Shown: positions 3,337 to 48,604 of the stretch, one piece after another | Position numbering within the stretch: the first letter of the stretch is position 1 | How the letters are laid out: the number at the start of each line of letters is the position of its first letter | IMG/VR virus record: IMGVR_UViG_3300050139_000043 | Location: 1 to 48,604 of that record | Source of the DNA: a virus | Length of the DNA: 48,604 nt | Strand: one strand, 5' to 3' | Program-made: the position numbers and the translations under genes | The notes under the pieces: generated by a model | Told to the model about the DNA's origin: nothing | Seen by the model: the letters and a program-made list of their open reading frames with translations, nothing else | Databases searched by the model: none

Positions 3337-5694
3337 ATGACGATCCCCCCGCCGCCGGCTGGCGTCCACTTCCCGCACGTAACGGGCGACTTTGAAACGG
3401 CTTCCGAAGCCGGCTATTTTTGGGATGAAGGCAAACAGCGCTGGCATGGGCCGCCGGGGGCCGCGCAGAACAAAAAGGGCCTGAATGTTATCGGGGCCGC
3501 CGCCTACGCCGAGCATCCTACAACCCGCGTTTTGACTTTCTCGTATCAGCTTCCCGGCTGGCCTGCCCCGGTGCGGTGGCGGCCGGGCCAGCCTCTTTCG
3601 CTTGTCCAGCCTCTATTCGACTGGATCGCCGCCGGGGGCCGCTTCGAAGCTCACAACGTCATGTTTGAACGCCTGATATGGTGGCACGTATGCCGCCGTG
3701 ATCACGGCTGGCCCGAGCTTCCGCCCGCGCAGCTTTCTTGCAGCATGGCAACCGCCCGCGTGAACGCGCTCCCCGGTAAGCTCGCCGATCTTGGCGACGT
3801 GCTGAACCTTCACGTCCGCAAGAACAAGGACGGAAAGCGGTTGCTGGACCGCTATAGCGTGCCCCGGAAGCCGACGAAGGCCGATCCCCGGTTCTGGATA
3901 AGCCCCGACGATCCCGGCGAGGAACGGGACGCGGAAGGGCTCTATACCTACTGCGACGAAGACGTGTTGACCGAAATCGCCGCGTCCAGCGCCATGCCGC
4001 CCATGACGGCCGCCGAGCGCGAATTTTGGCTAGAGGATCAAGCGATAAATTGGCGCGGGCTGGCGATCGACCGCCAAGCCGTCCGCGATTGCATCGCCGT
4101 GCTGAACCAATGCCTTGCCCAATACGGCCGCGAAATGCGCGAGCTAACCGGCGGGATCGAAACGACGCAATTGGAACGGCTGAAAGGCTGGCTTGCTGCG
4201 CAGCACGTCTATTTGAACAGCCTTGACGCCGAGCATGTCGAAGACGCCTTGAAGCGGATCGTTCCGCACCCGCCCGGCGGGATCAACCCGGCGCGGCGGG
4301 TTCTAGAGCTTCGCGCGCTCACGGGCTCGGCGACGGTCAAGAAAGTGTTCGCCATGGAAAACATGGCGAGCGCCGACGATCGGCTTCGGAACCTGATCGT
4401 CCACCACGGGGCGCGCACGGGCCGCCCGACGGGCGAAGGGGCGCAACCCCTGAACATGGCGCGCAGCGGCCCCAAGCTGGCGACGTGCAAGCCGTGCGGC
4501 AAGCCCTACCGCCATGGGCATACCGCGTGCCCGTGGTGCGGCTCCCCGGCCGATCCCAAGGCGCATAAGACGTGGAAGCCGTCTATGGTCGACCATGTTC
4601 TAGAGATCATGGCGTTCCAGTCTCTAGAGCTTGTGGAATGGTATTTCGGCGACGCGCTCTTGTGCATCGCCGGTTGCTCGCGCGGGCTGTTCGTGGCCGG
4701 CGAAGACGCGGACCTGATCGCGAGCGACTATAGCGCGATCGAAGCCGTCGTGACCGCCGAGCTTGCCGGCGAGCAATGGCGGCGCGACACGTTCCACGCC
4801 AAGAAAGACATTTATCTTTCGTCGGCGTCCAAGATCACGGGAACGACGGTTGAAGAATATTTGGCCTACCTCGCCGCGCACGACGACAATCACCCCGACC
4901 GCCAAAAGATCGGCAAGGTTGCCGAGCTTGCGCTAGGCTTCGGCGGCTGGATTACGGCGTGGCGTCAATTCGACGATACGGACACGTTCAGCGACGCCGA
5001 AGTGAAAGAGCTTATCAAGGCTTGGCGGGCCGCGTCCCCGGCGATCGTCGAACTATGGGGCGGCCAATGGCGCGGGCCGCCGTGGAACGGCTACGCCGAG
5101 CGCTACGGGTTCGAAGGCGCGGCGATTGATGCCGTCCAGAACCCCGATCAGGATTTCCGCCCCATGTTGCGCGATTGGTCCGCCGGTTATGCCGGCGACT
5201 GGCGCAACGACACGCCCGACATTACGTTCCGGTTCGATAGCCGGCGCGATTGCCTCTTGATCACGCTGCCGAGCGGTCGCAAGCTCACGTATTGGGAGCC
5301 GCGCCTAGAGGCGTCGACCCGTGACTATGCGTCGCCGGGGGAGCTTTCGCTTTCCTATATGACGTGGAACAGCAACCCGAAATATGGCTATCTCGGTTGG
5401 GTTCGCATGTCGACCTATGGCGGCCGGCTCACGGAAAACATCGTTCAGGCAACCGCGCATTGCCTCTTGCGCTTCGCGATCCTTGGGCTTCGCGAAGCCG
5501 GGTTCCCGACCGTCTTGCACGTCTATGACGAAATCGTCGTTGAAGTGAAGCGGCGCGTCCCGTGTCCGCCCGGCGTGCGGGACGTCACGATCGCGCTTGT
5601 CGAAGCGATCATGTCCCGCGTCCCGGCATGGGCGAAGGGTTGGCCCGTCCGCGCCAGCGGGGGCTGGAGAGGAAAAAGGTATCGCAAGGGGTGA
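3337..5694 (+). CDS. Family A DNA polymerase with 3'-5' exonuclease
   Basis: A 785-residue replicative polymerase. The exonuclease part has Exo I (GDFETAS, residues 17-23), Exo II (EAHNVMFE, about 104-111, with Glu in place of the usual Asp) and Exo III (YCDED, about 206-210). Polymerase motifs are TGRPTGEGAQPLN (about 361), motif A DYSAIEAVV (about 463), motif B KIGKVAELALGFGG (about 524) and motif C LHVYDEIVVE (about 728, with Tyr where most family members have His). A four-cysteine zinc ribbon (CKPC and CPWC, about 384-401) interrupts the thumb/palm junction. It ends the rightward replication operon; a 50-bp palindrome begins at its last base. Confidence 0.93.
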   Translation: MTIPPPPAGVHFPHVTGDFETASEAGYFWDEGKQRWHGPPGAAQNKKGLNVIGAAAYAEHPTTRVLTFSYQLPGWPAPVRWRPGQPLSLVQPLFDWIAAGGRFEAHNVMFERLIWWHVCRRDHGWPELPPAQLSCSMATARVNALPGKLADLGDVLNLHVRKNKDGKRLLDRYSVPRKPTKADPRFWISPDDPGEERDAEGLYTYCDEDVLTEIAASSAMPPMTAAEREFWLEDQAINWRGLAIDRQAVRDCIAVLNQCLAQYGREMRELTGGIETTQLERLKGWLAAQHVYLNSLDAEHVEDALKRIVPHPPGGINPARRVLELRALTGSATVKKVFAMENMASADDRLRNLIVHHGARTGRPTGEGAQPLNMARSGPKLATCKPCGKPYRHGHTACPWCGSPADPKAHKTWKPSMVDHVLEIMAFQSLELVEWYFGDALLCIAGCSRGLFVAGEDADLIASDYSAIEAVVTAELAGEQWRRDTFHAKKDIYLSSASKITGTTVEEYLAYLAAHDDNHPDRQKIGKVAELALGFGGWITAWRQFDDTDTFSDAEVKELIKAWRAASPAIVELWGGQWRGPPWNGYAERYGFEGAAIDAVQNPDQDFRPMLRDWSAGYAGDWRNDTPDITFRFDSRRDCLLITLPSGRKLTYWEPRLEASTRDYASPGELSLSYMTWNSNPKYGYLGWVRMSTYGGRLTENIVQATAHCLLRFAILGLREAGFPTVLHVYDEIVVEVKRRVPCPPGVRDVTIALVEAIMSRVPAWAKGWPVRASGGWRGKRYRKG

Positions 5695-5743
5695 CATGCG
5701 CAAATAATGCTTGACCGCGCGGTCAAGCATTATTTGCGCATGT
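5694..5743. promoter_or_regulatory. 50-bp perfect palindrome containing the TTGAC-N6-GTCAA operator
   Basis: Left arm 5694-5718 and right arm 5719-5743 are exact reverse complements with no loop. The centre (5711-5726) is TTGACCGCGCGGTCAA, the most symmetric of six related sites in the genome. It starts at the last base of the polymerase stop codon. There is no good -10 hexamer at 17 bp on either strand and no T-tract, so neither a promoter nor a classical terminator is clear. It may act as operator, transcript-end hairpin or cruciform. Confidence 0.85.
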
Positions 5744-13354: not shown

Positions 13355-13383
13355 TTGACCGCGCCGCCAATCCTTCGTATCAG
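13355..13383 (+). promoter_or_regulatory. Promoter with overlapping operator, rightward island 1
   Basis: TTGACC (13355-13360), a 17-base spacer, then TATCAG (13378-13383). The 16 bases from the -35 box are TTGACCGCGCCGCCAA, one of the six related operator words. Downstream comes GATATCC followed by AAAGGA, which also follow other promoters of this phage. It should drive 13435-15019. Confidence 0.75.
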
Positions 13384-13434
13384 ATATCCGAAAGGAACGG
13401 CCGTCCCCTCTTGCTCTTGAAAGGAGCCCGCGTC

Positions 13435-13698
13435 ATGCACGTTCTTCCCCCTCTTGGTCACGCGGCCCGCGAGCTTTTCGCCGTGGCTGATTTGGCCGCC
13501 TACGGGCTTGGCGCGGTGCCGCCCATGGTGATCGAAGCTCGCGCAGCCGCGCGGAACCTGTTCGCCGGGGAGCCGGCTATCCGGCGGGTGGCCTATATCG
13601 TCTTGCTCGCCGACGATCGGCTTGCGCTGATCAGCTTCGGCCGTCGGCTGGCGATGAAGCGCCATTGGATTTTTGGGCCGTGGAAGGCGGCCCGTTAA
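13435..13698 (+). CDS. Small protein, first gene of rightward island 1
   Basis: An 87-residue protein. ATG 13435 follows AAAGGAG by the usual distance; an in-frame ATG at 13351 lies inside the promoter and is unlikely. The sequence has a helical Ala-rich middle and a beta-rich end (VAYIVLLADDRLALISFG) with a basic C terminus. No family is recognised. It heads seven closely packed rightward genes inserted among leftward baseplate genes. Confidence 0.7.
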   Translation: MHVLPPLGHAARELFAVADLAAYGLGAVPPMVIEARAAARNLFAGEPAIRRVAYIVLLADDRLALISFGRRLAMKRHWIFGPWKAAR

Positions 13699-13701
13699 CC
13701 G

Positions 13702-13729
13702 GATCGCAAGGTTTCAATCGTATATCTAA
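13702..13729 (+). promoter_or_regulatory. Putative regulatory box upstream of 13747, twin of 36921-36948
   Basis: GATCGC, four variable bases, TTTCAATCG, N, ATATC, N, AA. The same 28-base arrangement occurs at 36921-36948 with 23 identities. Here it is followed by AAATCGAAAGGA, the ribosome site of gene 13747. It may be a second promoter class or a protein-binding site. Confidence 0.5.
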
Positions 13730-13746
13730 ATCGAAAGGAACGGACA

Positions 13747-13974
13747 ATGAAGTTACTCCCCCTCGCCGTCGTCATGGAAAAGGCCCTTGCAGCGGGGGCG
13801 GACCCCGCCGCGATCGAAGCGGACGCGGTTCGCTACGCCCGCAACGTCAAGGCGGTTCCCTTCAAGAACATGATCGTCGCGCTGAACCTTTGCCCATGGC
13901 ACAACGGCCGGGAAGAATGGGCACGGCTCGCCGCCGCGCTGCGCGCCAAGCAAATCGCAAGGAAGGCGGCGTGA
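13747..13974 (+). CDS. Small helical protein of island 1
   Basis: A 75-residue protein with ribosome site AAAGGA before ATG 13747. It is Ala-rich and basic at the C terminus, with a central conserved-looking FKNMIVALNLCPWHNGREEW. No family is recognised. The next gene starts with GTG inside its stop codon. Confidence 0.7.
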   Translation: MKLLPLAVVMEKALAAGADPAAIEADAVRYARNVKAVPFKNMIVALNLCPWHNGREEWARLAAALRAKQIARKAA

Positions 13975-14243
13975 AGCCCGCCGGGGCCTTGGGGGTCGAC
14001 GCGCAACGCGGCGTCGGCATCGTAACCCCTGCTAAGCCCAACCGGGTCGACGCCGCCTATATCGACGGCATTCGCGAAGGGCGCGCCATGCTGCGGAAGT
14101 ATGGGCCGGAAATCGCCGCCGAAGAAATCGACAACCTGAACCGGACGATCAAGGGCTTTTCCGCCACAAGCGCCGTCGGGCAAATGCTGCGCGGCGAGCG
14201 TGATTTTTGGAAAAACCAAATCAAGAAAGGGAAACAGCCATGA
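13971..14243 (+). CDS. Small helical protein of island 1
   Basis: A 90-residue protein from GTG 13971 (GTGA overlap; AAGGA about 10 bases upstream). Residues 25-80 are helical and charged (YIDGIREGRAMLRKYG, IDNLNRTIKGFS). The C terminus is Lys-rich. Function unknown. Confidence 0.7.
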   Translation: MKPAGALGVDAQRGVGIVTPAKPNRVDAAYIDGIREGRAMLRKYGPEIAAEEIDNLNRTIKGFSATSAVGQMLRGERDFWKNQIKKGKQP

Positions 14244-14377
14244 ACTACGCGGAAGCCGCCTACTTCGACGACGTGCCGTGCCAGCACGTCGCGGACTGGC
14301 TGGAAAACCAGCGCTTGCGCCGCCGGCTGGAACTTTGCCAGCGCGTCAATCGCGAGCGCCGGGGGCGCGGCCGGTGA
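14240..14377 (+). CDS. Very small Arg-rich protein of island 1
   Basis: A 45-residue protein from ATG 14240 (ATGA overlap), with GAAAGGGAAA as ribosome site. It is acidic and aromatic at the N terminus, and Arg-rich after residue 25 (QRLRRRLELCQRVNRERR). It bridges exactly between its neighbours with overlaps at both ends, which supports that it is real. Function unknown. Confidence 0.65.
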   Translation: MNYAEAAYFDDVPCQHVADWLENQRLRRRLELCQRVNRERRGRGR

Positions 14378-14568
14378 CGGTCGACGATATCCGCCGGGAT
14401 CGCGAGCGCCGGGAAGCCGCCGCGCAAGCCATCGCCGACACGCTCCCGCCGGGAGCCTATCACGCTTCGGGAACCGCCGTCGTCAATTCGGGCACGCGCG
14501 AAGCCGTCGCCGAATGCGCAACCCATTGGGATGCGTGTCTGATCATGCTGCGGACAAGGAAGCCATGA
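14374..14568 (+). CDS. Small protein of island 1
   Basis: A 64-residue protein from GTG 14374 (GTGA overlap). It starts with a charged helix (VDDIRRDRERREAAAQAIAD) and has two Cys residues near the C terminus. ATGA overlap with the next gene. Function unknown. Confidence 0.65.
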   Translation: MTVDDIRRDRERREAAAQAIADTLPPGAYHASGTAVVNSGTREAVAECATHWDACLIMLRTRKP

Positions 14569-14822
14569 ACAAGGAAATCGGATTTCTTCGCTACTGGCGC
14601 GCGCTCGCCGCGCACGAAACCAGCTTCGGCGACCCGGCCCCGACATGCGGGGAAGCGTGGCGGTCGTGGCACGCCGTCGGCGCGATGGAGCGGCGCAACG
14701 CGGCGAACGATTTGTTGATCGCGGATTGGCGCGCCGAAAACCCCGCGATCGTCAAGGTATGGAACGAACATAACCCCGGCCCCGAAAACTCTTGGGTTGC
14801 CAATCGCTACCGGAAGGATTGA
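14565..14822 (+). CDS. Small aromatic protein of island 1
   Basis: An 85-residue protein from ATG 14565 (ATGA overlap), with AAGGAAG just upstream. It is rich in Trp and Ala (CGEAWRSWHAVGAMERRNAA) and ends basic. Function unknown. Confidence 0.65.
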   Translation: MNKEIGFLRYWRALAAHETSFGDPAPTCGEAWRSWHAVGAMERRNAANDLLIADWRAENPAIVKVWNEHNPGPENSWVANRYRKD

Positions 14823-14824
14823 CC

Positions 14825-15019
14825 ATGTATTTCGTCGCATTCTTGCTTTCGATCCCCGGCCAGCCGGTGACGCATTACGACTTGCCCAACGCGCATTTCC
14901 GGTCGGTTGCCGCGTGCGCGGCGTTCGTCCAGCGTGTCGCCCGACTACGGCCCGACGCGCACGGCTCGGGGACGTGCAGCAACGGCAACCCCTACGACGC
15001 CTTTACGGTGCGGTTCTAA
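14825..15019 (+). CDS. Last small protein of island 1
   Basis: A 64-residue protein from ATG 14825, two bases after the previous stop, with GAAGGA upstream. Two Cys residues and a beta-rich start (YFVAFLLSIPGQPVTHYDL) are visible. Its TAA shares bases 15016-15019 with the stop codon of the opposing baseplate gene, leaving no room for a terminator. Confidence 0.65.
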   Translation: MYFVAFLLSIPGQPVTHYDLPNAHFRSVAACAAFVQRVARLRPDAHGSGTCSNGNPYDAFTVRF

Positions 15020-15630: not shown

Positions 15631-16490
15631 TAGCCGCCCTTCCCGAACAGATTGCAGTCGATCAGCGTAAACCATTTGCCGCCCGGCGTCTCGGCTTCAA
15701 GATCGTGCGTCAACGAATAGACCGCCCATGCGCCGTTCGCTTGCGTAATGTCGCTTTCGACTTGGATCGCCCCGCCGAAATTGATCGACGGATTGAACAG
15801 CGATTGCACGCTGAACCCGGTTTGCGTCCGCAGCGGATAGCCCACCATGCCCGTGTCGGGCGATATGACCGGGATCGCCCCCTTGCGCACGCCGTCCAGC
15901 GGCCAAATCGCAAGAACGTCGTGGTCGATCACGAAATTGCAATGCGCCGCTTGCGCTAGGTCGCGAGCCTGATCGGCAAGGCAACCGTGCAAATACGGAT
16001 CGGCGATCACGCCCGCGACGCCGCCGTTTTCGAACTGCAACCCAAGTTGCCCGGCGATGCCCGACATAGCCAGCGCGATTTCGATCGACCCCTTGTAGGA
16101 CGTCGGCGGGACCGGCTTAAGCGCCGCGATCAGGCCCGTTCGCGCCATGACAATGAACCCGACTTGCGGCATGTTTCGCGCGTCAATCCACGCCTCTTGA
16201 ATGATCCCCTGAAAGACGACGGCGAGCCCCGTCGTGCTAGTCCCGGCTTCGACCGTGATCGTGTTGTTTCGGCCGTCGATCAGGGGCGAACCTAGGATCG
16301 TGAGCTTGTTCATTATGTCCAGCGGCATTCCCATGATCCGCAGGTTACATTCGGCCATGATCGCCCCGGCGCGCACGATCGTTGCCGACGTCCGCAGCCC
16401 TTCAACCGTGAACGTGTCGCCCTTGCCGTCGCCGAACGATCCCGCGCCGAGCGTGAAGGAAACCCGGATATGCCGCTTTACCAGCGCCAC
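15630..16490 (-). CDS. Baseplate hub protein (gpD/gp27-like)
   Basis: A 286-residue protein directly upstream of the spike. It is beta-rich (FTVEGLRTSATIVRAG, TVEAGTSTTGLAVVFQGIIQ), with the middle segment VIDHDVLAIWPLDGVRKGAI seen in hub proteins of Mu/Bcep-type phages. The hub connects tail tube and spike. Assignment comes from composition, size and synteny. Confidence 0.75.
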   Translation of the reverse strand: MALVKRHIRVSFTLGAGSFGDGKGDTFTVEGLRTSATIVRAGAIMAECNLRIMGMPLDIMNKLTILGSPLIDGRNNTITVEAGTSTTGLAVVFQGIIQEAWIDARNMPQVGFIVMARTGLIAALKPVPPTSYKGSIEIALAMSGIAGQLGLQFENGGVAGVIADPYLHGCLADQARDLAQAAHCNFVIDHDVLAIWPLDGVRKGAIPVISPDTGMVGYPLRTQTGFSVQSLFNPSINFGGAIQVESDITQANGAWAVYSLTHDLEAETPGGKWFTLIDCNLFGKGG

Positions 16491-16492
16491 GA

Positions 16493-17566
16493 TCAGGCCC
16501 CCGCGAACAAGAGCGCGACCCGGCCCCCAAGGTCCGCATAGCTCACATTCCCGAGCCCGCCTTGCGTGTCGTGAAAGATCAGGTCGCCAAGGAAGCCGAG
16601 ATATGGGGAACGAATGATCGGATTGTCGTTCTGGACAAGGACGCCGCCGATCGTGAGCGCGTCGTTCTGATAGACGTCGGCGAACAGCCCGTCGGCCGTC
16701 TGCGCAAGGTCCAGCCGCACGGACTGCCCGACAAGCTGAACCGTGAGCGATTGCGCGGCCGTGGCGAGAACGGGGATATTCAACAGCCCGGCCCCCTTGG
16801 CGACGATATCGCCGATCGTCGCGCCGACGCCGATCATTTGCGAGACTTGCGCCGCGCGCTGGATCGCCGGCATGGCGGCCGTGATTTGGGGGAAGGCGGC
16901 CACGGCCGGCGGAATGGCCGCCGTAGGCGTCGGGGGCGGCGTTTGCTGCGCGGTAGCGGGTTGCGCCTGCACTGGCCCCCCTTGGACCGCCGCCGAGCCC
17001 GCAGGGGCCTTGCTATCGGTAAAAGCGGACGTCGCCGTTTGCCGGACTTCGGTAAAGGAGATTTCAACCGTGATCAGGGTTGCCCCGCGCTCTTGGCTGC
17101 GCACGTAATCGTATCGGACAAGGCTGCTATCGGGAAAGACATTATCCGGCATGACGACGCTAAACAGGTCAAGGCTGGCGGTCATGTCGTCCAGCGTGTC
17201 AAGGAAGGCTTGCCGATCGGCGTCGCTCCCGCCCTTGGTCACGCTTACGCGGGTTTCGCGCGGCGTGGCGACTTTGTTGAACGTCTGGAACCCGCCCTTT
17301 TCGGTCGGATAGTCGGACAGGCGAAATTCCCGGTGCGGTTCCACGGACACGACGCTATCGACGGCGAGCGCCAGCGCGCCCCCAAGCGTGTAAATCCCCC
17401 AAACGGCGCGCGAGCCCGCCGCCACGCCCGGCGCGTCGTGCGTGAGCTTGGGCCGAACAAGGTTCGCGATATCGTTCGCGATCCCGATTACTTCGTTCGC
17501 CCGATCGCGAAAGACAGGCGGGACGCCGGGAAGTTGCGGGACGTTCGGAAAGAGCGGGTTCGCCAT
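16493..17566 (-). CDS. Tail/baseplate protein, possibly Dit-like
   Basis: A 357-residue protein between tape measure and hub. The segment RLSDYPTEKGGFQTFNKV and the following beta-strand region (residues 80-165) resemble Dit-like or gpP-like adaptor domains. The second half is Pro/Ala/Gln-rich before a hydrophobic C-terminal domain. ATG 17566 is chosen. TTG 17572, in a TTGA overlap with the tape measure stop and with GGGGG at good distance, is an equal alternative. Confidence 0.65.
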   Translation of the reverse strand: MANPLFPNVPQLPGVPPVFRDRANEVIGIANDIANLVRPKLTHDAPGVAAGSRAVWGIYTLGGALALAVDSVVSVEPHREFRLSDYPTEKGGFQTFNKVATPRETRVSVTKGGSDADRQAFLDTLDDMTASLDLFSVVMPDNVFPDSSLVRYDYVRSQERGATLITVEISFTEVRQTATSAFTDSKAPAGSAAVQGGPVQAQPATAQQTPPPTPTAAIPPAVAAFPQITAAMPAIQRAAQVSQMIGVGATIGDIVAKGAGLLNIPVLATAAQSLTVQLVGQSVRLDLAQTADGLFADVYQNDALTIGGVLVQNDNPIIRSPYLGFLGDLIFHDTQGGLGNVSYADLGGRVALLFAGA

Positions 17567-17568
17567 GG

Positions 17569-19248
17569 TCAATCAAGCCCCCGGTTCGCTTGCGTCGTCA
17601 AGCCCCGACGTCGGATCGCGCCGGGAAGCTGCGCGGCGAACTGATCGGCGTTCTGGACGCCCGGCAAGCTGATAGACCCGATCGTCACGTTCGCCGGCTG
17701 GCGCGAGCCGCCCCGGCCGCCGCCGCTTTCGCTGCGCGCGATCAGGCCACGGACTTGCGCCCACGACCGGCCCGCGTAGGCCCCGCGCCGAGCGTCGGGA
17801 AGCGAAGCCCAAACCGATTTCAGGTTGCCGCCCTTGCTATCGTTGAAAATGGCTTCGGCGAGCTTTTCTTGCGCCGCCGCGTCGAACGTCATGTTCCGCC
17901 AATTGGACCCGAACAGCCGGGGCGCATACTTGGACAGCGTTTCGCCGGTAATCTGATATTTGCCGGCCGCGCTGGACCCGACGACGCCCCGGCTATCGCG
18001 CCCGATCCCGGCCGCTTTCGTGCGCGGGATAAGGACGTTCCGGCCGAACTGATAGACGTCGCCCATGGACATGCTGGACACGCGGGCGGACCCGAATCGG
18101 CCGTTCCCGATCACGGCGTCATAGTTGCCCCTGACGTCGCCACTGGACGCCCCGCCGGCCGCCGCAGCCGGGCCGCCGGCCGCCGCTTCCCGAGCCCGGC
18201 GCGCGTCAATGGCGCGGTCGATATCGTCGGTATTCTTGACCCCCGCGCCGATCATCGCCGCGTAAACGTCGCGAGCGCCGAAAATGCCGTGCGTCGCGAA
18301 GACGAAGTGCGCGTAAGTCTTTTCGAACTGCGCAAGCTGATCGCCCACGAAATTCATTACCGTCATAACTTCCGCGCCGAGAAATTTGAACGTATCGCCC
18401 ACGGCCGACGCGACGCCGCCGATCATAGACAGCGCGACTTGGACGCCGGGGGAAACCTTGATTACGTGCGTGAACGTGTCGATCACTTTCAGCGCGCCGT
18501 CGACGATATCGTAAACCGCCGGGCGCAAATAGCCGGTAATGATCGCGGCAAGGTTTGCCCACTTGGCTTCTAGGGCTTCGGCTTGCCGGCCTTGGTCTTC
18601 GCTCGCCGCCGCGTCCGCTTCCCGAGCCTTCACAAGCTCGCGCATTTTGACCGGCCCAAGCGTGAGCAAATTGATCACGCCATCCGTGAGCCCCATTTGA
18701 TGCGCGAGATTGTAGAATTGCGTGCGCGGCATTTTCTGCGCGGCTTCGGCGAGCCGTTGCATGGCGTTCGCCGGGTCGTCCAGATCGCCTTTCTTGAAGC
18801 CCAAAAGCATGAACTCGCGATCGTGCCCGGTCGACCCCGTGAGCTTCAATTGCTCCCGAGCTTGCGCGAGTAGCGAAAAGGCCCCCTTGGCTTCGTCGAC
18901 GTCCCCGCCGACGTTCTTGATCGCCAGCCCATAGGCGGACAGCGCGATCGTCGACATGCCGAGATTGCGGGCCAGCCGCGACGTCGCCGCGTCCCCCGTG
19001 ACCATGTTGCCGATAAAGGACTGGATCGACGACGCGCCTTGAAACGCGAGGAACAAGCCGATCGCTTCGTTCCGCAGCTTGCCGATCGCGTTGCCGGCCG
19101 TCTTGCCAAATTCGTCGAACGTCTTCCCGGTTTTCTCGGCGTCGTCGCGCGTATGCTTTTGGCCTTCGGACAGCCGCTTGCGCCCGGCGTCGAAGCCGCG
19201 CGCGTCCAGCCCGAGAACGACTAGAAGGCTGTCAATTATCGTCGCCAT
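17569..19248 (-). CDS. Tail tape measure protein with lysozyme-like domain
   Basis: A 559-residue protein. Helical, Ala/Lys-rich residues 1-330 include TMP-like MATIIDSLLVVLGLDARGFD and a hydrophobic segment around 225-300. A Gly/Ala linker follows, then residues 380-500 with FGRNVLIPRTKAAG, SSAAGKYQITGETL and RRGAYAGRSWAQVRGL. The GKYQI signature is typical of transglycosylase/lysozyme domains that open peptidoglycan during ejection. The protein also sets tail length; at 559 residues the tail should be short to medium. Confidence 0.85.
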   Translation of the reverse strand: MATIIDSLLVVLGLDARGFDAGRKRLSEGQKHTRDDAEKTGKTFDEFGKTAGNAIGKLRNEAIGLFLAFQGASSIQSFIGNMVTGDAATSRLARNLGMSTIALSAYGLAIKNVGGDVDEAKGAFSLLAQAREQLKLTGSTGHDREFMLLGFKKGDLDDPANAMQRLAEAAQKMPRTQFYNLAHQMGLTDGVINLLTLGPVKMRELVKAREADAAASEDQGRQAEALEAKWANLAAIITGYLRPAVYDIVDGALKVIDTFTHVIKVSPGVQVALSMIGGVASAVGDTFKFLGAEVMTVMNFVGDQLAQFEKTYAHFVFATHGIFGARDVYAAMIGAGVKNTDDIDRAIDARRAREAAAGGPAAAAGGASSGDVRGNYDAVIGNGRFGSARVSSMSMGDVYQFGRNVLIPRTKAAGIGRDSRGVVGSSAAGKYQITGETLSKYAPRLFGSNWRNMTFDAAAQEKLAEAIFNDSKGGNLKSVWASLPDARRGAYAGRSWAQVRGLIARSESGGGRGGSRQPANVTIGSISLPGVQNADQFAAQLPGAIRRRGLTTQANRGLD

Positions 19249-33838: not shown

Positions 33839-35494
33839 CTACATTTCCGCAAGCAATTCGGCGTCGATTACCATAGCCGCCCGGTGCGCGCGACCAAACA
33901 AAATCATAATGACGTCGGCAAGGTTCGGGGACTTGACGGCTTGCTGCGCTTGCGCTTGTCCCGGCGGGGCCTTGTCGACGACGATATGCCCGGTCGTCGC
34001 CTTAACATAGGTCGGCTGCGAAAGCTCCATTATGACCTTGCCGAGCAAGCCGAACGGCGCGCCTTCGTTGGGGATATTCAGCGCTTCGCTGTCCAGCGAT
34101 ATCAATTCGCTCGGGTCGAACTTGTCGCCAAATTCCACGGCGCGGAATGTCTTGTAGAACCGGCGGCGCAACGCCCACCATTCTTGCGCCTTGCGGTTGC
34201 GGAAAAAGTCTTCGTTCTTCCGCCCGGCGACGTCTTCGGCGAGCGGCGCGAGAACGCCAGCCGAGCCCCGGAACGCTTGAACGTCCAGTTGCTTTTGATG
34301 CTTTTCGTTGCGGCGATCATTGATCACGCGGCTATTGCCCCGCACGTCCGCCCCGAGCCCGTCCGCGTCGTAAAGGAAGGCGTCGATATCCCATTCGTCG
34401 GCGAGGTCGAACGCCTTTTCCGTGCTGGCGAAAATGTCTGACCCCTTGCCGGACCATTCGGCGATCCGGTCGACGACGACGCCATGGGCGCGGCCGAAAG
34501 CGTTCTTGTCCCGGCCTTCGTCCGCCACGTCCATTGCGCCACGGGGGCGGCCCGTCGCCTTGAAGCCGAGCCGCTTATGCGCGTCGACGGCCGCCTGAAC
34601 CCAATTGCTCGGGATCAAGACGCCCGTGGTCGACGCCGCGTAATTTATGTCGATTTCCTGCGCGACCGTTACCGGGTCCAATTCCTCGCATTGCTTCCGA
34701 TACCAAGCGTCGTCCTTGCGGGGATCGTCGCGCCAATGGCACGTAAAGACGCTGATCTTTCCCCCGTGGCGTTTCTCGGCGAAGGGGTTGTTCAAGCCGT
34801 TGGCGCTGGAAATATCAATTCGGCAATTGGTCGTCGCCGACAAGCTGGCTTCGATCAGTTGCGGCCGTTCAACGTAGGCGGCTTCGTCGACGAAATAGAT
34901 CGCTTGCCGATCGCCGCGCCCGATATTGTCGCCGGCTTCGCCCGTGATCGTCGACCCGGTTTGCGGGAACGACAAGCGAAGGTGCGCGCTGCAAGTGCGC
35001 GGGTTCCAGCCACCCGTGAAGTCGGGGGGCAGGTTCAGGACGAATTGCCGGGCTTTCCAGAACAGCGATTTCGGGTGGCCGATCTTGTCGACGTATTCTT
35101 CCTTGCGGCTCCCGAAGCCGATCGAAATATCATCGCGGAAAAGGCACAACGTCGACGCCAGCGACACGGCAAGCCACGACAGGCCGAAGTCGCGACTTTT
35201 CTCGGCGAGCCCCGGCTTGCGCTCGCGCCACTGGCCCATGACCCATTGGCACCATTCGCGTTGCTTGGGGAAAAGGATGAATGGAATTTTGACGGGAAGG
35301 TCAAGCTCGGCGTTGCGCGGGTCGACCGTGACGCCCCAATCGTTGATAAAATCCCAAGGCGCGTCCCGGTAATGCAGGAACAGCCGATCGCGCAAATCGA
35401 CGTCTTGCCTGATCAGGCGAAGCCGGGCCGATCGGGCTTGAATGATCGGGCCATAGTCGGGCTTGCGGAAATCGAACGGAACCCCCGTCGCCAT
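33839..35494 (-). CDS. terL: Terminase large subunit
   Basis: A 551-residue packaging motor. The ATPase part has a T4-like adenine region (PKQREWCQWVM), Walker A as EKSRDFGLSW, and Walker B AIYFVDEAAYV. The nuclease part includes RPRGAMDVADEGRDKNAFG and FLYDADGLGADVRGNSRV with the metal-binding Asp residues. Together with the small subunit at 36122-36877 it cuts and translocates DNA through the portal encoded next. Confidence 0.92.
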   Translation of the reverse strand: MATGVPFDFRKPDYGPIIQARSARLRLIRQDVDLRDRLFLHYRDAPWDFINDWGVTVDPRNAELDLPVKIPFILFPKQREWCQWVMGQWRERKPGLAEKSRDFGLSWLAVSLASTLCLFRDDISIGFGSRKEEYVDKIGHPKSLFWKARQFVLNLPPDFTGGWNPRTCSAHLRLSFPQTGSTITGEAGDNIGRGDRQAIYFVDEAAYVERPQLIEASLSATTNCRIDISSANGLNNPFAEKRHGGKISVFTCHWRDDPRKDDAWYRKQCEELDPVTVAQEIDINYAASTTGVLIPSNWVQAAVDAHKRLGFKATGRPRGAMDVADEGRDKNAFGRAHGVVVDRIAEWSGKGSDIFASTEKAFDLADEWDIDAFLYDADGLGADVRGNSRVINDRRNEKHQKQLDVQAFRGSAGVLAPLAEDVAGRKNEDFFRNRKAQEWWALRRRFYKTFRAVEFGDKFDPSELISLDSEALNIPNEGAPFGLLGKVIMELSQPTYVKATTGHIVVDKAPPGQAQAQQAVKSPNLADVIMILFGRAHRAAMVIDAELLAEM

Positions 35495-38284: not shown

Positions 38285-38288
38285 TGGT

Positions 38289-39046: not shown

Positions 39047-39068
39047 GATACCGGCTCCTTTCGGATAT

Positions 39069-39098
39069 CCGATATCATACGGTTGGCAGCGCGGTCAA
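39069..39098 (-). promoter_or_regulatory. Leftward promoter with operator
   Basis: On the minus strand TTGACC (39098-39093), then TATCGG (39074-39069) at 18 bp, or ATATCG at 17 bp. The 16-base operator word TTGACCGCGCTGCCAA spans 39098-39083. GGATATCCGAAAGGAG follows and leads into ATG 39046. Confidence 0.7.
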
Positions 39099-39723: not shown

Positions 39724-39992
39724 GACGCCAGCGTCCCGCAAGCGACGTTGCACGCGCCCCCGGTCGACATGATCCAGATATGCGCGGCGGTCCCCTTCAC
39801 GGCGTCGCCGGGGGATAGCACGTTGCCTTCGCCCGCCGTGACGGGCTCGGCGTCGGCATAGACGACGAAAATGGAACCCGGCCCCTTGTTCTGAACGAAG
39901 CTCGGGACGCCGCCCATGGGCGCGCGGTCGACGACGATATCATGCCACGCGCTAGAAGCGGGCCAGTCTGCGAGCGTGATCGTATCGGCCAT
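39720..39992 (-). CDS. Small virion-type protein next to PrimPol
   Basis: A 90-residue protein from ATG 39992 (TAATG overlap with PrimPol). It is beta-rich and contains PSFVQNKGPGSIFVVYADAE, similar in style to small head or tail decoration proteins. It is probably expressed with 39109-39723. Function unknown. Confidence 0.6.
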   Translation of the reverse strand: MADTITLADWPASSAWHDIVVDRAPMGGVPSFVQNKGPGSIFVVYADAEPVTAGEGNVLSPGDAVKGTAAHIWIMSTGGACNVACGTLAS

Positions 39993-42478
39993 TATTGCCC
40001 CCCGAAACGCGAAGCTGCCTGATCGTTCGTAACGACGTGCTGCGCGGAAGTGTAGGCTTTACCAATCGCGCCGGGGTTGGTCAATTGCAGCGACAAATGA
40101 CCGTCCTTGACGAACAGTCGCGGCTTGCCGCCGTCGGGGGTCACGGTGCCGGCCGTGCGACCGTCGGACAAGCCGGGGTGCAAGCGATAGCCGAGCGCTT
40201 CGACCAAGGCCCGCCGCTTGATCCGGGGAACCGGGGCCTTGATCCGATCCAAGAGCCGATCCAGCATGATCGACGAAAGCCAGCCGCCCGCGAAGCCGGG
40301 TTCGCCCGCTTCGATCGCTTCCATTATCTCTTGTTCTGCGCGGCCAAGCGACAGGCTGCGCGCCGTGGCGCTGGACGACGTTTCGGGAGCGCGGACGCAC
40401 TGTTGCGCCGGGTCAAGCTCGGCGGTCAAGGCGTAAGCGTGAAGCCATTCGTTGACGATTGACGCGCCATACCAAAGCCCGAGCCCTTCATACGCCCCGC
40501 GCCCGTAAAACCAGTCGTAAAGATCGGGGAAATAGTTGCCGGTCATGCCGTCGCGCATAAGGTCCAAGATCGACTGTTGCGCGGTGTAGAGAATGCAATA
40601 ACGCCGGCTGTCAATGGTCACGGGGATAGCGTCGGCGTGGTTCGTGAACATGATAATATTTAGGCGGTTGTCGCCGGTTTCTTGGTTCAGGCCCTTGCCT
40701 TCAAGGGGAATGCGGTCGTCGGTAACGGTCGTCTTGAACGTCTCTAGAAAGTCGCGCCGATTGTTGACGTAAATTTCTTCGATCCCCAAGAATAGCTTGC
40801 CTTCAACCCATGCGTTGAATTGGTTTCCCGTCTTCGCCATGGCGTCGGGGTTGACAAGGTGCGAGTAGCGTTGCCCGATGCAGAATTGCATTAGGCGGTT
40901 GATCAGGCTCTTGCCGTTGCCTTCCATGCCTTGAATGACCGGGCACCATTGGAATTTGCGCCCCGGATTGCGAACCATGCTGGCGAGGTAGTGATAGAGG
41001 ATTTCCCGATCGCGCGCGAGCGGCAACAGCTTTTCCATATGCCGCAGCCATGGGCCGGCGTCGCCCGCGCGGCGAAGCGTCTGGATCGGGAGATAGGTAT
41101 TCAACAGCGCGAGCCCTTCCTCTAGGACGATCGCGCCCGACGGATATTCGGGCCGGAAGCATGGCTTATGCGCGCGGGGAGCTTCAAGCACGCGGGAGCG
41201 CGTGAAGGCGTCGAACGGGCTGTCTGTTACCTTGTCGTTCTGCGCGTCCAGCGGGAAAAGGTGGCCGCCGTAAACGACGTCCATTCGCGCCTTGTCCAGC
41301 ATAACCCCGGTGGCCGGAACCCAAACCTTGTTATCCCGCACGACATAGACGCAACCGGCGAAATAGCTGGCCTGCCCGTCGGCTGGAATGAAGTCGCGCC
41401 CGGCGGCCCGCATCACCATGCTGTTCGAAGCCGTGACCAAGCCGCCAACGATCGCCGCGCCGTCCGGCGTCGGGTGTGCGATAACCGTCGTCACGGGCTG
41501 GACCGTCGCCGGCTGGCCCGCAAGAGCGCCGGGGGCGGGCACGGGATCGCGTTTCTTGCAAATGTTCGTCACGACGGACGCGGCGCGCATGATCGTGGTT
41601 TCCAGCCAATCGGGCCGGTCTTCCCATTTCTGGCGAGCAAGCCCCGACTGGAACATAAGGTCGCGGGTGCGTTCGTGGTTCTTGCCGGTCCAGTAGGCGA
41701 GGTGCGATGCGAGCGCGCCGTCGGCTTGGCTGGCGTCATAGCCGCCTTTGTCGCTAGGCCACTTGCGCGCGAGCTTGTCGGGGTTGGCGTCCCAAAGGTC
41801 CGCAAAGGTCACGTTGCCTTCGCCGAACACGTTGGCGGCGTTCTTTTGACCGGACGCCAGCGCGGCGCGCAGCAAGTCGGCGTCGTCTTCGGGGCCGCCG
41901 TAGCCTTCGCACGGCTCGGCGGACCAGCCGGCAATTTCGCCGTGCGGATTGGGCGGAAAGTAGCGTTCGGCGAACGCGGTCAAGGCGGCCGTATGGTCAA
42001 GGCTGGCGTCGCCTTGCAGCGCCGTCCCCGTGAGCGCGACAAAGCGTTCGTGCGTGTAAAGCTCAATATGCAGGCCGATATTCTTGCAGCTATGCGGCGG
42101 CGCTTTGCCCCGGCCGATAACATGCAAGCCGGTCATGGACTGGCTGACTTCCACGGCCGCGCCGGGGAACATCGCAAGGATTTCGTGCGCGAGCGGCGAC
42201 CATGCCTTGCCGGCTGGCGTGTCGATCAGCGCGCCGTCGACGTCGACGAAGAAATAGCCGTCCGCTTCGTTGAACACGAACCCGACGGCGCGACCGGTGG
42301 CGACCGCTTCGGCGAACGAATATTGATGCTCGGGAAGGTTGCTATTACACCATAGCCCCGTGCGGACGTCCACGGGCCGCTTGATCGTCTTGCCGGGGCG
42401 ATCGGGATCGGGATACGTCTCATAATTTACGAACCGCTTAAGCGCGGCAAGGGGTGCAAGTGCCGTCCCCAAATCCAT
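39992..42478 (-). CDS. PrimPol-SF3 helicase (DUF5906/NrS-1-like)
   Basis: An 828-residue replication protein. Residues 1-200 look like a primase-polymerase domain: YFFVDVDGALIDTPAGKAW with catalytic Asp residues, EVSQSMTGLHVIGRG, then HIELYTHERFVALTG. Residues 480-640 form an SF3-type helicase: Walker A IQGMEGNGKSLINRL, Walker B GKLFLGIEEI, and sensor NIIMFTNHADAIPV. The C terminus resembles a winged helix (AEQEIMEAIEAGE region). It probably primes and unwinds for the family A polymerase. Confidence 0.87.
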   Translation of the reverse strand: MDLGTALAPLAALKRFVNYETYPDPDRPGKTIKRPVDVRTGLWCNSNLPEHQYSFAEAVATGRAVGFVFNEADGYFFVDVDGALIDTPAGKAWSPLAHEILAMFPGAAVEVSQSMTGLHVIGRGKAPPHSCKNIGLHIELYTHERFVALTGTALQGDASLDHTAALTAFAERYFPPNPHGEIAGWSAEPCEGYGGPEDDADLLRAALASGQKNAANVFGEGNVTFADLWDANPDKLARKWPSDKGGYDASQADGALASHLAYWTGKNHERTRDLMFQSGLARQKWEDRPDWLETTIMRAASVVTNICKKRDPVPAPGALAGQPATVQPVTTVIAHPTPDGAAIVGGLVTASNSMVMRAAGRDFIPADGQASYFAGCVYVVRDNKVWVPATGVMLDKARMDVVYGGHLFPLDAQNDKVTDSPFDAFTRSRVLEAPRAHKPCFRPEYPSGAIVLEEGLALLNTYLPIQTLRRAGDAGPWLRHMEKLLPLARDREILYHYLASMVRNPGRKFQWCPVIQGMEGNGKSLINRLMQFCIGQRYSHLVNPDAMAKTGNQFNAWVEGKLFLGIEEIYVNNRRDFLETFKTTVTDDRIPLEGKGLNQETGDNRLNIIMFTNHADAIPVTIDSRRYCILYTAQQSILDLMRDGMTGNYFPDLYDWFYGRGAYEGLGLWYGASIVNEWLHAYALTAELDPAQQCVRAPETSSSATARSLSLGRAEQEIMEAIEAGEPGFAGGWLSSIMLDRLLDRIKAPVPRIKRRALVEALGYRLHPGLSDGRTAGTVTPDGGKPRLFVKDGHLSLQLTNPGAIGKAYTSAQHVVTNDQAASRFGGQ

Positions 42479-42503: not shown

Positions 42504-42833
42504 TTAGATAAGCTCGCGAGCGGCTTCCATACGAAGGTGTTCCGGGGCTTCCTTGGCCCTAGGATGGCCGCACGCGAGCCCTTGCGCAAGGACAGGCAAA
42601 TTCCGGTTTTCGATCGCGTCCATGATCAGCGCGTCGCGCAGCCCGGCCATGGTTCCAAATTCGTGATTGATCGTGCCGTTTGCCACGCCCGCACGCTTCG
42701 CAATAGCGCGCCGCAGCATCGCATGGAAGCCGGTTTCGACGGCTTCCTGCGCGGCGGCGAGCAACAGACGACGGCGACGTTCGCGACGCTGGAACGCGGT
42801 TCGTTCCTCTTGGGTCATGCGGTTAGGTGGCAT
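42504..42833 (-). CDS. TetR-like helix-turn-helix regulator
   Basis: A 109-residue protein from ATG 42833 (GGGAG upstream). Residues 17-70 fit a TetR N-terminal DNA-binding domain: RRRLLLAAAQEAVETGFHAM, then the helix-turn-helix AIAKRAGVANGTINHEFGT, then LRDALI. Normal TetR proteins are near 200 aa; the ligand/dimer domain here is reduced to about 40 residues. One copy of the 16-bp operator word lies 40-55 bases upstream, so it may repress itself and the other operator sites. Confidence 0.7.
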   Translation of the reverse strand: MPPNRMTQEERTAFQRRERRRRLLLAAAQEAVETGFHAMLRRAIAKRAGVANGTINHEFGTMAGLRDALIMDAIENRNLPVLAQGLACGHPRAKEAPEHLRMEAARELI

Positions 42834-42859
42834 TCGAAGGGCTCCCGGTTGGACCGTGA

Positions 42860-42888
42860 CGACTACGCGGGCTTGACCGCGCCGTCAA
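42860..42888 (-). promoter_or_regulatory. Possible promoter/operator of the TetR-like gene
   Basis: On the minus strand TTGACG (42888-42883), 17 bases, TAGTCG (42865-42860). The operator TTGAC-N6-GTCAA (42873-42888) is perfectly symmetric, flanked by GC on both sides. It overlaps the end of the upstream gene. The -10 box is weak. Confidence 0.55.
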
Positions 42889-45793: not shown

Positions 45794-45825
45794 GGGGGCG
45801 GTCCTTTCCTTTGCGTTACGGATAT

Positions 45826-45854
45826 CCATTACGGACGGTTGGCCGCGCGGTCAA
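45826..45854 (-). promoter_or_regulatory. Leftward promoter with operator
   Basis: On the minus strand TTGACC (45854-45849), 17 bases, TAATGG (45831-45826), then ATATCCG and AAAGGAAAGGA before ATG 45793. The operator word TTGACCGCGCGGCCAA spans 45854-45839. The -35 box begins four bases after the helicase stop codon, so it re-initiates transcription behind the helicase gene. Confidence 0.75.
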
Positions 45855-45857
45855 GCA

Positions 45858-47498
45858 TTAATTTGGCCCCCGCGCGATTATTTTTTCGGCGAGCGCTCGC
45901 GCGTCCCGCGTCCCGAGCCCTTGGGCCGTGATCACGTCCACGCCGAACACAAGGAAGAACTTGCGTTGCATGGCGCTATCGTTCAGCCCGGCGGCGAGAC
46001 AATGGCCGCCAAACTGGCCCATGGCCGCGCGAAGCTCGGCGATAGCGTCTTGGTTCTCCCGGCGGCGGTTGACGTTGCCGGCGACGGCGACATGCGGGAG
46101 CCCCGTCTTGATAAGCTCTTGCCGATAGAAGTCTTCGTGCCGGTCGACGTTATCCATGGGCTCGCGCAGCCGGGCCAGCGTCTCGGCGTCAAGCTCGGAA
46201 ACGTCGCCGTCGACCGCCTTCGGGGACGATCGGGTCGCCGGCTCGGGATAGTGGCCGCAGTAGGGGCATTCCTTGTAAAACCGTTCGTATGGTTCGAAGC
46301 ACGCCACGCAAACCCGGTAAGGGATCGCGTCGCCAGCCGCAGACTTTGCGTTCGCCGCCCGGTCCAGCGTCCAAAGGCGCGGCTTGTCCGGCGGCCCTTG
46401 ATGCCGCAGCACGTTCGCAACGTGGTCGATTATGATCGCCTTGCCCTTGCCCGGCATGGTCCGCAGCGTCCGCCCGAATTGCTGCATATAGAGCGCGAGC
46501 GATTGCGTCGGCCGGGCCATGCTGGCGCATTCGATCGCCGGCAAGTCGAAGCCTTCGGAAATGATATCGACCGCGACGATTTGCAGAATTTCGCGCCGTT
46601 CGAAGCGCTTCAAGATCGACCGCCGCAGATAGTCGTCTGTCTTGCCCGTGAGCGTCTCGGCGGGAATGCCGGCCGCCCGGTAAGCCATGGTCATTTGGCC
46701 GGCGGTTTCAACGTCTGTGCTGAACGTGATCCCGAGCTTGCCGAGCGCATAAGTCTGATAGCCGCGCACAACGTCGCCGATGATATGCGAGCGCTTCGCC
46801 GCTTCCCGTAGCGCCTTGGTCGACCAATCCCCCGACGCGGCGACGTCTTCCAGCATCTCCAAATCGCACGGGGGACAGAAAATCCGATAGTCGGACAGAT
46901 AGCCTTGGTCGATAAGCCAACGCATAGGCGGCCCCTGAACCATGACGTCCGCCACGCCGTTTGCGTGACGCCCGAGCCCCTTGCCGTCGGCCCGCTTTGG
47001 CGTGGCCGTCGGGAGCAAGCCCCGGCATAGCGCGTGCGTGAACCGGGAAATCGCCGTATGCCATTTGTTGTCGACGACAAGGTGATGCCCTTCGTCGACA
47101 ACCCAAAGCGTGACTTGTTCGGCGAGCCCGGCGGGAAGCTCGGCTTTGACAAGCGTGTCCACGGACGCCACGAAACAACGCGCGCCGGGGTCGTAATAGC
47201 TGCGGCCCAATTCTTCGATATGGGCGCGGACGATCGCGCGCCGGGTGCTTTCGGCCGCAATGATATTGTGCCGGACGCCATACTTCGCCAGCGTCAAGGA
47301 CAGTTGCCCGACAAGCTCTTGCCGGTGCGCGATGATCGCCGACGCGCCCCCGTGGTTCCGAATGATATCGGACAGCGTGACCGTCTTGCCGCCGCCCGTG
47401 TCCAGCCGCATAAGGACGTTTCGCGCGCCTTGGTTCCATGACTGATAAACTTCGTCGCGCAGCGTGGCTTGGAACGGTCGCAGAATAGGAGTGGTCAC
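45858..47498 (-). CDS. SF2 DEAD/DEAH-type helicase
   Basis: A 546-residue protein from GTG 47498 (GTGA overlap). Motifs: RPFQATLRDEVYQSW (Q-like), I LDTGGGKTV, Ia IIAHRQELVGQ, II VVDEGHH, III LLPTATPKRADG, IV/V region IISEGFDLPAI, VI YMQQFGRTLR. A zinc ribbon (CVACF and CPYCGHY) follows the helicase core, as in related phage helicases. It is the first large leftward early gene and probably acts in replication initiation or recombination. Confidence 0.92.
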   Translation of the reverse strand: MTTPILRPFQATLRDEVYQSWNQGARNVLMRLDTGGGKTVTLSDIIRNHGGASAIIAHRQELVGQLSLTLAKYGVRHNIIAAESTRRAIVRAHIEELGRSYYDPGARCFVASVDTLVKAELPAGLAEQVTLWVVDEGHHLVVDNKWHTAISRFTHALCRGLLPTATPKRADGKGLGRHANGVADVMVQGPPMRWLIDQGYLSDYRIFCPPCDLEMLEDVAASGDWSTKALREAAKRSHIIGDVVRGYQTYALGKLGITFSTDVETAGQMTMAYRAAGIPAETLTGKTDDYLRRSILKRFERREILQIVAVDIISEGFDLPAIECASMARPTQSLALYMQQFGRTLRTMPGKGKAIIIDHVANVLRHQGPPDKPRLWTLDRAANAKSAAGDAIPYRVCVACFEPYERFYKECPYCGHYPEPATRSSPKAVDGDVSELDAETLARLREPMDNVDRHEDFYRQELIKTGLPHVAVAGNVNRRRENQDAIAELRAAMGQFGGHCLAAGLNDSAMQRKFFLVFGVDVITAQGLGTRDARALAEKIIARGPN

Positions 47499-47818
47499 GC
47501 TTGCGCCGCCTCTTTCAGCATGGCCGAAACTTCGGCGTATTCGGGCGGAAGGCTTCGACAGCCCCAAGGCAAGTCCAGCAACGCGCAAAACTGGATCGCG
47601 TATTTCAATTCGAACAGCATGATCCGCGCGCAAAGGACGGCCGGGTCGTGCCGGTATTTTTCGAACAGACTTGTAACCTTGGTCCCGGTTTTTATGAACG
47701 TCACGTCGAAGCCTAGGTGCGTGTCGTGGATCGCCATAAGGCTATCCGCCGTCGGCTTGAAGCCGTCGACTTCGATCGCCCCGGCTTCCGTGGCGATCCA
47801 GAATTTTGCCTTTTGCAT
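47495..47818 (-). CDS. Unknown protein, first leftward early gene
   Basis: A 107-residue protein from ATG 47818. It has a mixed alpha/beta fold with AIHDTHLGFDVTFIKTGTKV and a C-terminal helical part with Cys residues (LLDLPWGCRSLPPEYAEVS). No family is recognised. It shares the intergenic control region with the divergent rightward operon. Confidence 0.65.
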   Translation of the reverse strand: MQKAKFWIATEAGAIEVDGFKPTADSLMAIHDTHLGFDVTFIKTGTKVTSLFEKYRHDPAVLCARIMLFELKYAIQFCALLDLPWGCRSLPPEYAEVSAMLKEAAQA

Positions 47819-47846: not shown

Positions 47847-47875
47847 TTGACCGCGCCGTCAATCCAGCATAATCC
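47847..47875 (+). promoter_or_regulatory. Main rightward promoter with operator in the divergent control region
   Basis: TTGACC (47847-47852), 17 bases, TAATCC (47870-47875). The operator ATTGAC-N6-GTCAAT (47846-47863) is a perfect inverted repeat in its arms. It lies between leftward gene 47495-47818 and rightward gene 47908. A leftward start could use the mirror TTGACG box, but its -10 (ATTTGG at 17 bp) is poor. Confidence 0.7.
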
Positions 47876-47907: not shown

Positions 47908-48604
47908 ATGTTGCATATCGAAATTTCTGGCGACACGTCGCCGCGCGAATTGAAGGCCGTCAAGGCGCTGATCGCGTGCTTGCTCGGCGAGACGTCGACC
48001 GCCGCCGTGGCCGCTTCCGCCCCGGCCCCCGCGACGATCCCCGAGACGCCGGCCGCGCCCGAGACGCCGGCCGTTCCCGAAGTGTCGACCATTCCCGCCC
48101 CGCCCCTTTCCGCCGTTCCGCCGCCCCCGGTGGCCGGAACCGACGCCGTGCCGGGGGAAGTCCCCCCGCCGCCCCCGGCCGGCGTCGACGTCGACAAGGA
48201 CGGGTTGCCTTGGGATGGCCGCATTCACGCTTCGACCAAGACGAAGACGAAGGGCGACCAATGGACGAAAAAGCGGCAAGTCGACCCGGCTCTTGTGGCG
48301 CAAGTCGAAGCCGAGCTTCGCGCGGTCATGGCGGCCCCGGCCGTCTCGGCGGGGTCCGTCCCGCCGCCGCCGACTGGCGAGCCCGGCCCGGTTCAGACGG
48401 ACCCCGCCGCCGCGTTTGGGGGCGCGCCGTCAACCCCCGCCGACGCGCCCCCGGCCGTCACGGAAACCGCTTCCCCGACTCCCATGGCGGAATTTGCAAG
48501 GATTATGCGGGTCGTGACCGGAAAGCAAGCGGCCGGCACGCTGGCAACCGAAACGGTCGCCGGGATCGCGCAAGCGCTCGGGATTACCGGGGTCAAGGAC
48601 TTGG
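47908..48604 (+). CDS. N-terminal part of junction-spanning Pro/Ala-rich protein
   Basis: Starts at ATG 47908 with GGGAGCC upstream and runs off the window end; it continues through the terminal overlap to the stop at 207 (about 247 aa). N-terminal domain (MLHIEISGDTSPRELKAVKA, residues 1-30), a long Pro/Ala linker, then DGLPWDGRIHASTKTKTKGD and KKRQVDPALVAQVEAELR, a motif met in many phage early proteins. A second Pro-rich linker leads to the helical C-terminal domain. Function unknown; it heads the replication operon. Confidence 0.75.
   Translation, partial: MLHIEISGDTSPRELKAVKALIACLLGETSTAAVAASAPAPATIPETPAAPETPAVPEVSTIPAPPLSAVPPPPVAGTDAVPGEVPPPPPAGVDVDKDGLPWDGRIHASTKTKTKGDQWTKKRQVDPALVAQVEAELRAVMAAPAVSAGSVPPPPTGEPGPVQTDPAAAFGGAPSTPADAPPAVTETASPTPMAEFARIMRVVTGKQAAGTLATETVAGIAQALGITGVKDL
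48445..48604. repeat. Terminal repeat, right copy
   Basis: Right copy of the 160-base end overlap described at 1-160. All three mismatches change the encoded residue (Ala/Pro, Ser/Thr, Ala/Thr). This is compatible with population variation or a chimeric contig end in a proline-rich repetitive stretch. Confidence 0.9.

Follow-up and report, generated by a model that had tools for sequence, protein, structure and literature searches.

A 109-aa TetR-type protein (mini-TetR) encoded by the phage genome described here is probably a ligand-independent autorepressor that would shut early promoters by covering the −35 element and the spacer; we infer its binding, its repressive action and its timing from the arrangement of genes, sites and promoters. 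The predicted operator is the word TTGRC-N6-GYCAA. Seven exact matches were detected in the window (the whole 48,604-base stretch of DNA that was analyzed) compared to 0.17 expected from dinucleotide shuffles (maximum of 2 in 100 shuffles), while the pattern read backwards had no matches in the window.

Predicted operator sites and the mini-TetR gene

The window is a virus record with a GC content of 64% and, on the basis of gene calls and family searches, the layout of a dwarf myovirus. Positions 1 to 157 and 48448 to 48604 are nearly repeated (∼157 bp with few mismatches), and the window is probably complete and circularly closed, the repeat being variable. The first gene of the rightward early operon extends past the contig end, and the operon resumes at the contig start with genes for a nuclease, an ssDNA-binding protein and a DNA polymerase (PHROG matches at 817-1869, 2091-3305 and 3337-5694). 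The leftward early operon contains a helicase gene, small genes, tetR and the gene for an NrS-1-like primase. Two short rightward islands interrupt a long block of leftward structural genes. The relevant features are as follows.

5711-5726, no strand assigned: predicted operator flanked by the DNA polymerase gene and a small zinc-ribbon gene; no −10
13355-13370, plus strand: predicted operator/promoter of the rightward small-gene island; TTGACC, 17 bp, TATCAG
13435-15019, plus strand: small-gene island predicted to be driven from 13355; first gene phrog_15793, others without family matches
35289-35304, no strand assigned: seventh match to the word; spacer GGGAAG; inside the gene at 33839-35494
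39083-39098, minus strand: predicted operator/promoter for the gene at 39046-38456 (phrog_2319 match, 5.3e-23); TTGACC, 18 bp, TATCGG
39992-42478, minus strand: NrS-1-like DUF5906 primase, directly downstream of tetR; PF19263 (1.2e-16), PF22763 (6.5e-14), phrog_1829 (1.6e-105)
42504-42833, minus strand: mini-TetR regulator gene, 109 aa; Pfam TetR_N, phrog_8723, AlphaFold2 model
42873-42888, minus strand: predicted operator/promoter for tetR, exact site TTGACGGCGCGGTCAA; weak −10 TAGTCG at 42865-42860
45839-45854, minus strand: predicted operator/promoter for a 58-aa gene at 45793-45617; TTGACC, 17 bp, TAATGG
45858-47633, minus strand: DNA helicase of the leftward early operon; phrog_16 (2.3e-81), PF00271
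47847-47862, no strand assigned: predicted operator at the divergent early junction; rightward −35 TTGACC with −10 TAATCC at 47870-47875, leftward −35 TTGACG
47908-48604, plus strand: first gene of the rightward early operon (gene call), running off the contig end

The sites thus lie at the divergent early junction (47847), after the helicase gene (45839), before tetR (42873), after the primase gene (39083), before the first island (13355) and after the polymerase gene (5711). All six had been listed in a first-pass annotation of this DNA and all were recovered, but a count of exactly six did not stand, as a seventh match was present at 35289. This copy, located in a gene and having an unrelated spacer, is probably a chance match. 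Positioning between genes or at gene ends, as had been claimed, was observed for the six listed sites: five were intergenic, and the site at 42873 extends into the final ∼16 bp of the upstream gene and sits directly upstream of tetR, 48 bp before the 109-aa start; the seventh match departs from it. Read in one orientation, the six listed sites have a longer core in common, TTGACCGCGCnGYCAA. The −10-like hexamers read by eye in the window at 17 to 18 bp (TATCAG, TATCGG, TAATGG, TAGTCG and TAATCC) were all weak, and the earlier assignment of a −35 box with a −10-like hexamer to five of the six sites holds only when these weak elements are counted, the site at 5711 having none. A reading of the sites as terminators was rejected, with a T-run being absent and the sites being located at −35.

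The site at 5711 is the center of a 50-bp perfect palindrome (window 5694-5743; ACATGCGCAAATAATGCTTGACCGC and its reverse complement). Its counterpart is at 38287 in G001, the nearest relative, which had ten matches to the word and composite promoters with the anatomy of those in the window. By comparison with G001, the downstream promoter half at 5711 looks to have been replaced by the inverted upstream half, as in a template switch.

Mini-TetR matched Pfam TetR_N (PF00440) over residues 23 to 69 (E value of 1.3e-9; 38.1 bits versus a cut-off of 24) and phrog_8723 over residues 6 to 108 (1.9e-25). The AlphaFold2 model consisted of seven helices (mean pLDDT of 96, pTM of 0.85), with a recognition helix at approximately residues 52 to 59 (NGTINHEF). 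Alignment to solved TetR proteins in the PDB was restricted to the helix-turn-helix (HTH) part, with EilR, FasR and AmvR as the best folds, and full-length fold matches were to other small viral proteins only. As modelled, the chain is a DNA-binding head with a short helical tail and has no room for a C-terminal ligand-binding/dimerization domain. Because this domain is absent, the protein was filed as a TetR-type DNA-binding domain and not as a full family member, and the initial description of a TetR-like protein is retained in this narrower sense. A 16-bp two-fold symmetric site with an 11-bp half-site spacing would be consistent with a homodimer on DNA.

Conservation of the palindrome and promoter anatomy

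A search for close relatives in IMG/VR with the 109-aa protein yielded no match, while the primase query detected 32 IMG/VR contigs. When GenBank was searched by tblastn with the 109-aa protein, matches were obtained in 97 phages, spanning Jedunavirus, Vibrio phages CP-T1 and 138, Edwardsiella, Acinetobacter and Shewanella phages, and others. A tetR-type gene was present in over a hundred sampled relatives and adjoins the primase gene across dwarf myoviruses. Comparisons were performed on 36 whole genomes or contigs, including the window, 33 of which had a tetR-like gene; as these genomes are related, the P values given below overstate independence.

In an inverted-repeat census run blind to the motif, TGAC-N6-GTCA ranked first or close to first among the palindromes of most Jedunaviruses and of CP-T1, PEi21, G001, G053, G056, G058, G066, G074 and others, with 8 to 19 copies versus 0.4 to 0.7 expected. 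There were 14 copies in JD001, 14 in KsaM-C1, 13 in PEi21, 16 in G058 and 19 in G063, compared to ∼0.7 expected. Further named records had 13, 15 and 17 copies (Jedunavirus), 8 (Vibrio phage 138), 1 (phiPLPE), 1 (Stenotrophomonas phage B2) and 0 (Milano), and six primase-bearing phages without mini-TetR had 0 to 2. Enrichment was a feature of most tetR-bearing kin. Copy number per genome is what counts in these comparisons, as pattern scans across the collection give mostly single chance copies; a census allowing one mismatch was discarded, having been swamped by codon periodicity. The strict word was absent from approximately one-third of TetR-bearing kin, some of which had degenerate forms, such as TTGACG-N4-CGGCA or TTGACG-N4-GGGCAA, while in others none were found. 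PD0307, AeroV_348, R9Y3, G054, G067, G068 and Milano have a TetR-like protein and were without the word, indicating either that specificity has changed or that the protein does something else.

In five annotated relatives and the window, a location between genes or shortly before a start was much commoner among the sites than expected by chance. For JD001, 10 of 14 sites were intergenic (P = 7e-8) and 11 of 14 were within a zone of 15 to 110 bp (P = 4e-8), while site placement in PEi21 had a P value of 5e-8. The distance from the site center to the annotated start was mostly 43 to 60 bp, as required for a −35 element. Of the 36 genomes, 24 had an operator-like word where tetR starts, versus 4.0 expected, and the divergent helicase/nuclease junction had a site in all six of the phages compared (the window, JD001, KsaM-C1, CP-T1, PEi21 and Scuro). 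Conserved Jedunavirus operators with a different phasing were also observed near the terminase small subunit and baseplate spike genes (JD001 [L160], positions 22967 and 91); for sites near structural genes, some late control is possible.

Of the 433 site-strands from the window and 18 kin, 85 had a TAnnnT-type −10 at a distance of exactly 17 bp from the first hexamer, versus a background of 0.7%. A lesser rise was observed at 18 bp (25 site-strands) and no comparable peak at other spacings. In a reverse test, promoters were chosen only by TTGAC, a spacing of 17 to 18 bp and TAnnnT, and the mirrored half was scored as present when at least three of the four bases of GTCA occurred at the mirrored offset. 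This half was present in 160 of 250 promoters from TetR-bearing kin (64%), with other offsets giving 0 to 11%, and in 1 of 31 promoters from kin without TetR. In a second set of loci, which did not overlap the first, the corresponding counts were 101 of 184 for loci with tetR and 3 of 17 where tetR was not detected, several of the latter being partial contigs. The mirrored half therefore tracks the presence of tetR, indicating that the second half-site is not a promoter element. The presence of operators in kin, on −35/−10 promoters and at tetR itself supports the original proposal of a self-regulated regulator of the leftward, rightward and island early operons.

The −10 elements of the window and G001 were weaker than those of other kin and had the form TATYnG-ATATC. 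This sequence is conserved and nearly palindromic (window 13378-13390, 39062-39074 and 45819-45831; G001 2999, 3486, 13185, 13840 and 30025), and GATAT-N3-ATATC was the second palindrome of G001. It may represent either a host-specific −10 or the site of a second regulator. An A/T-rich stretch upstream of the −35 was noted, by eye only, in both genomes.

Two copies of the TetR-type HTH per chain were observed in ∼30 of 106 relatives (e.g., L163 38065-38565 and L162 21424-21924). T-bearing operator sites accounted for 49 of 75 sites with tandem-HTH proteins versus 153 of 176 otherwise (Fisher test, 2e-4, on related sequences), which is suggestive only of less symmetric operators for the tandem proteins. 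Position 53, in the recognition helix, was a glycine in 2 of 11 kin lacking the strict palindrome and in 15 of 17 kin that had it. A coupling between recognition residues and the distal half-site was nevertheless rejected, as mutual information on a larger set was unconvincing and several rows were the first HTH of tandem proteins.

Other palindromes were detected in similar promoters. In Agrobacterium phage Milano (MK637516; L255, record 42964-54429), the promoter spacer is occupied by another palindrome, TTGACnnnTACAAATnATTTGTATA, present in seven exact copies and three near copies, for which Milano_047 and Milano_085 are candidate regulators; a pairing of the Milano palindrome ACAAATnATTTGT with the TetR-like protein of this phage was attempted and not achieved. 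G052 (L171) had five copies of TATACC-N8-GGTATA in the spacers of TTGAC promoters within 2.5 kb (16446-18907), distinct from the TTGACG-N4-GGGCAA set of the same genome.

Alternative explanations

A host sigma factor alone had been put forward at the outset as a possible explanation of the TTGAC part. On this view, the sites would be simply strong sigma-70 promoters and the palindrome a by-product to which no phage regulator is bound. TTGAC is indeed the −35 consensus, and a −10 is present 17 bp downstream in kin, but GTCAA corresponds to no sigma element and this mirrored half is conserved across distant hosts. As the GTCAA half was enriched only at the mirrored offset and in protein-bearing phages, this explanation is largely refuted and we regard it as highly improbable. 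Another explanation is that the true ligand is a transcription factor of the host, or a different DNA-binding protein of the phage, with tetR being a passenger in the same operons. The connection between mini-TetR and the palindrome is one of association, which is compatible with such a ligand. However, the hosts span Klebsiella, Vibrio, Acinetobacter and Edwardsiella, the FNR/FixK boxes have an N4 spacer as opposed to the N6 spacer observed here, and the site recurs at tetR itself, so a passenger role for tetR appears quite improbable.

Some TetR-family proteins are activators. LuxR of Vibrio harveyi is reported to both activate and repress (PMC2628434). With this precedent and the weak −10s of the window, mini-TetR could bind the palindrome as an activator of early or middle promoters, but the sites, near −28, overlap the −35 and spacer at the normal 17-bp spacing, where activators other than the MerR type are not known to bind, and the promoters of most kin look complete unaided; activation is, therefore, very unlikely. 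CP-T1, which was reported to be temperate without lysogeny genes (PMC3391216), suggests that mini-TetR could act in lysogeny or immunity, as the repressor of a temperate phage with a maintenance mode of another kind. CP-T1 has the same operator layout and its record contains the phrase 'induced lysogen', and repression of every early operon would be expected from an immunity repressor. Against this role, neither a PF00589 integrase nor an HTH_3 (PF01381) repressor was found in the window, in agreement with the first-pass annotation; tetR is inside an early operon and is itself an early gene; and no close kin were detected among one genome each of 84,980 species. Kin found with wider profiles on long genome contigs, including Vibrio hannami, were without tetR, while phage-sized contigs had it. 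A lysogeny repressor is thus unlikely, and less likely than an early autorepressor.

A putative early-gene switch and its relation to known regulators

For the early autorepressor, we envisage that host polymerase would fire the early promoters right after entry. The left half of the operator would double as the −35 hexamer of a sigma-70-type promoter, with a −10 at 17 to 18 bp, and two mini-TetR heads would bind one 16-bp two-fold symmetric TTGAC-N6-GTCAA site. Bound mini-TetR would cover the −35 and spacer and would therefore exclude RNA polymerase. The palindrome is centered near −28, inside a core promoter with normal spacing, and hence in the position of a repressor. Mini-TetR, a product of the replication operon expressed under its own operator, would build up and turn down not only its own gene but also the early operons and the small-gene islands. 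Given this placement of tetR in an early operon with its own operator, an early burst and then shut-off would be the simplest course. We infer both repression, as opposed to activation, and the absence of an inducer.

TetR/AcrR repressors such as TetR, QacR and EilR resemble mini-TetR in having an HTH head and a palindromic operator over their own promoter, but are ∼190 to 200 aa in length with a C-terminal ligand-binding domain that is missing from the 109-aa protein. Mini-TetR would also differ from them in serving, as a single regulator, six promoters spread over a phage genome. Lambda Cro and CI are phage autorepressors with several operators overlapping early promoters; their fold is unrelated to that of mini-TetR, the window has no lysogeny cassette and the mini-TetR sites are, unlike those of lambda, genome-wide, including one at a small-gene island in the structural block. 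By analogy, the closest mechanism would be that of the anti-CRISPR-associated (Aca) autorepressors, small phage HTH proteins whose binding to inverted repeats within the core promoter shuts down the operon encoding them (PMC9410906, in which TetR is not mentioned). An inverted repeat, here a predicted operator, is present at the predicted promoter of mini-TetR. Aca proteins control one acr-aca operon while mini-TetR would probably control the whole early program. Homologues of mini-TetR are annotated as 'TetR family transcriptional regulator' in Jedunavirus, CP-T1, 138 and phiPLPE, usually near the primase gene. One report names the TetR gene and suggests co-option, with promoters, palindromes and operators not being mentioned (PMC3391216). 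The gene was, therefore, annotated previously, while the operator network is apparently undescribed, as we found no description in a search of mainly open-access journal papers.

Much more tentatively, a ligand-free TetR head might act as the master switch for early genes throughout the dwarf-myovirus group, with the −35 half being fixed by sigma-70 while the other half drifts with the repressor, and with two-head fusions having less symmetric operators; in CP-T1, this switch may underlie lysogeny without a known lysogeny gene. An early autorepressor would assign a function and mapped targets to a gene whose annotation recurs in many Klebsiella phages of the therapeutic type and in related dwarf myoviruses. 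The network predicts the early promoters, and the small-gene islands they drive, as parts of a simple temporal switch. A repressor half-site doubling as a −35 box would be a compact regulatory part, and the old puzzle of the temperance of CP-T1 becomes directly testable.
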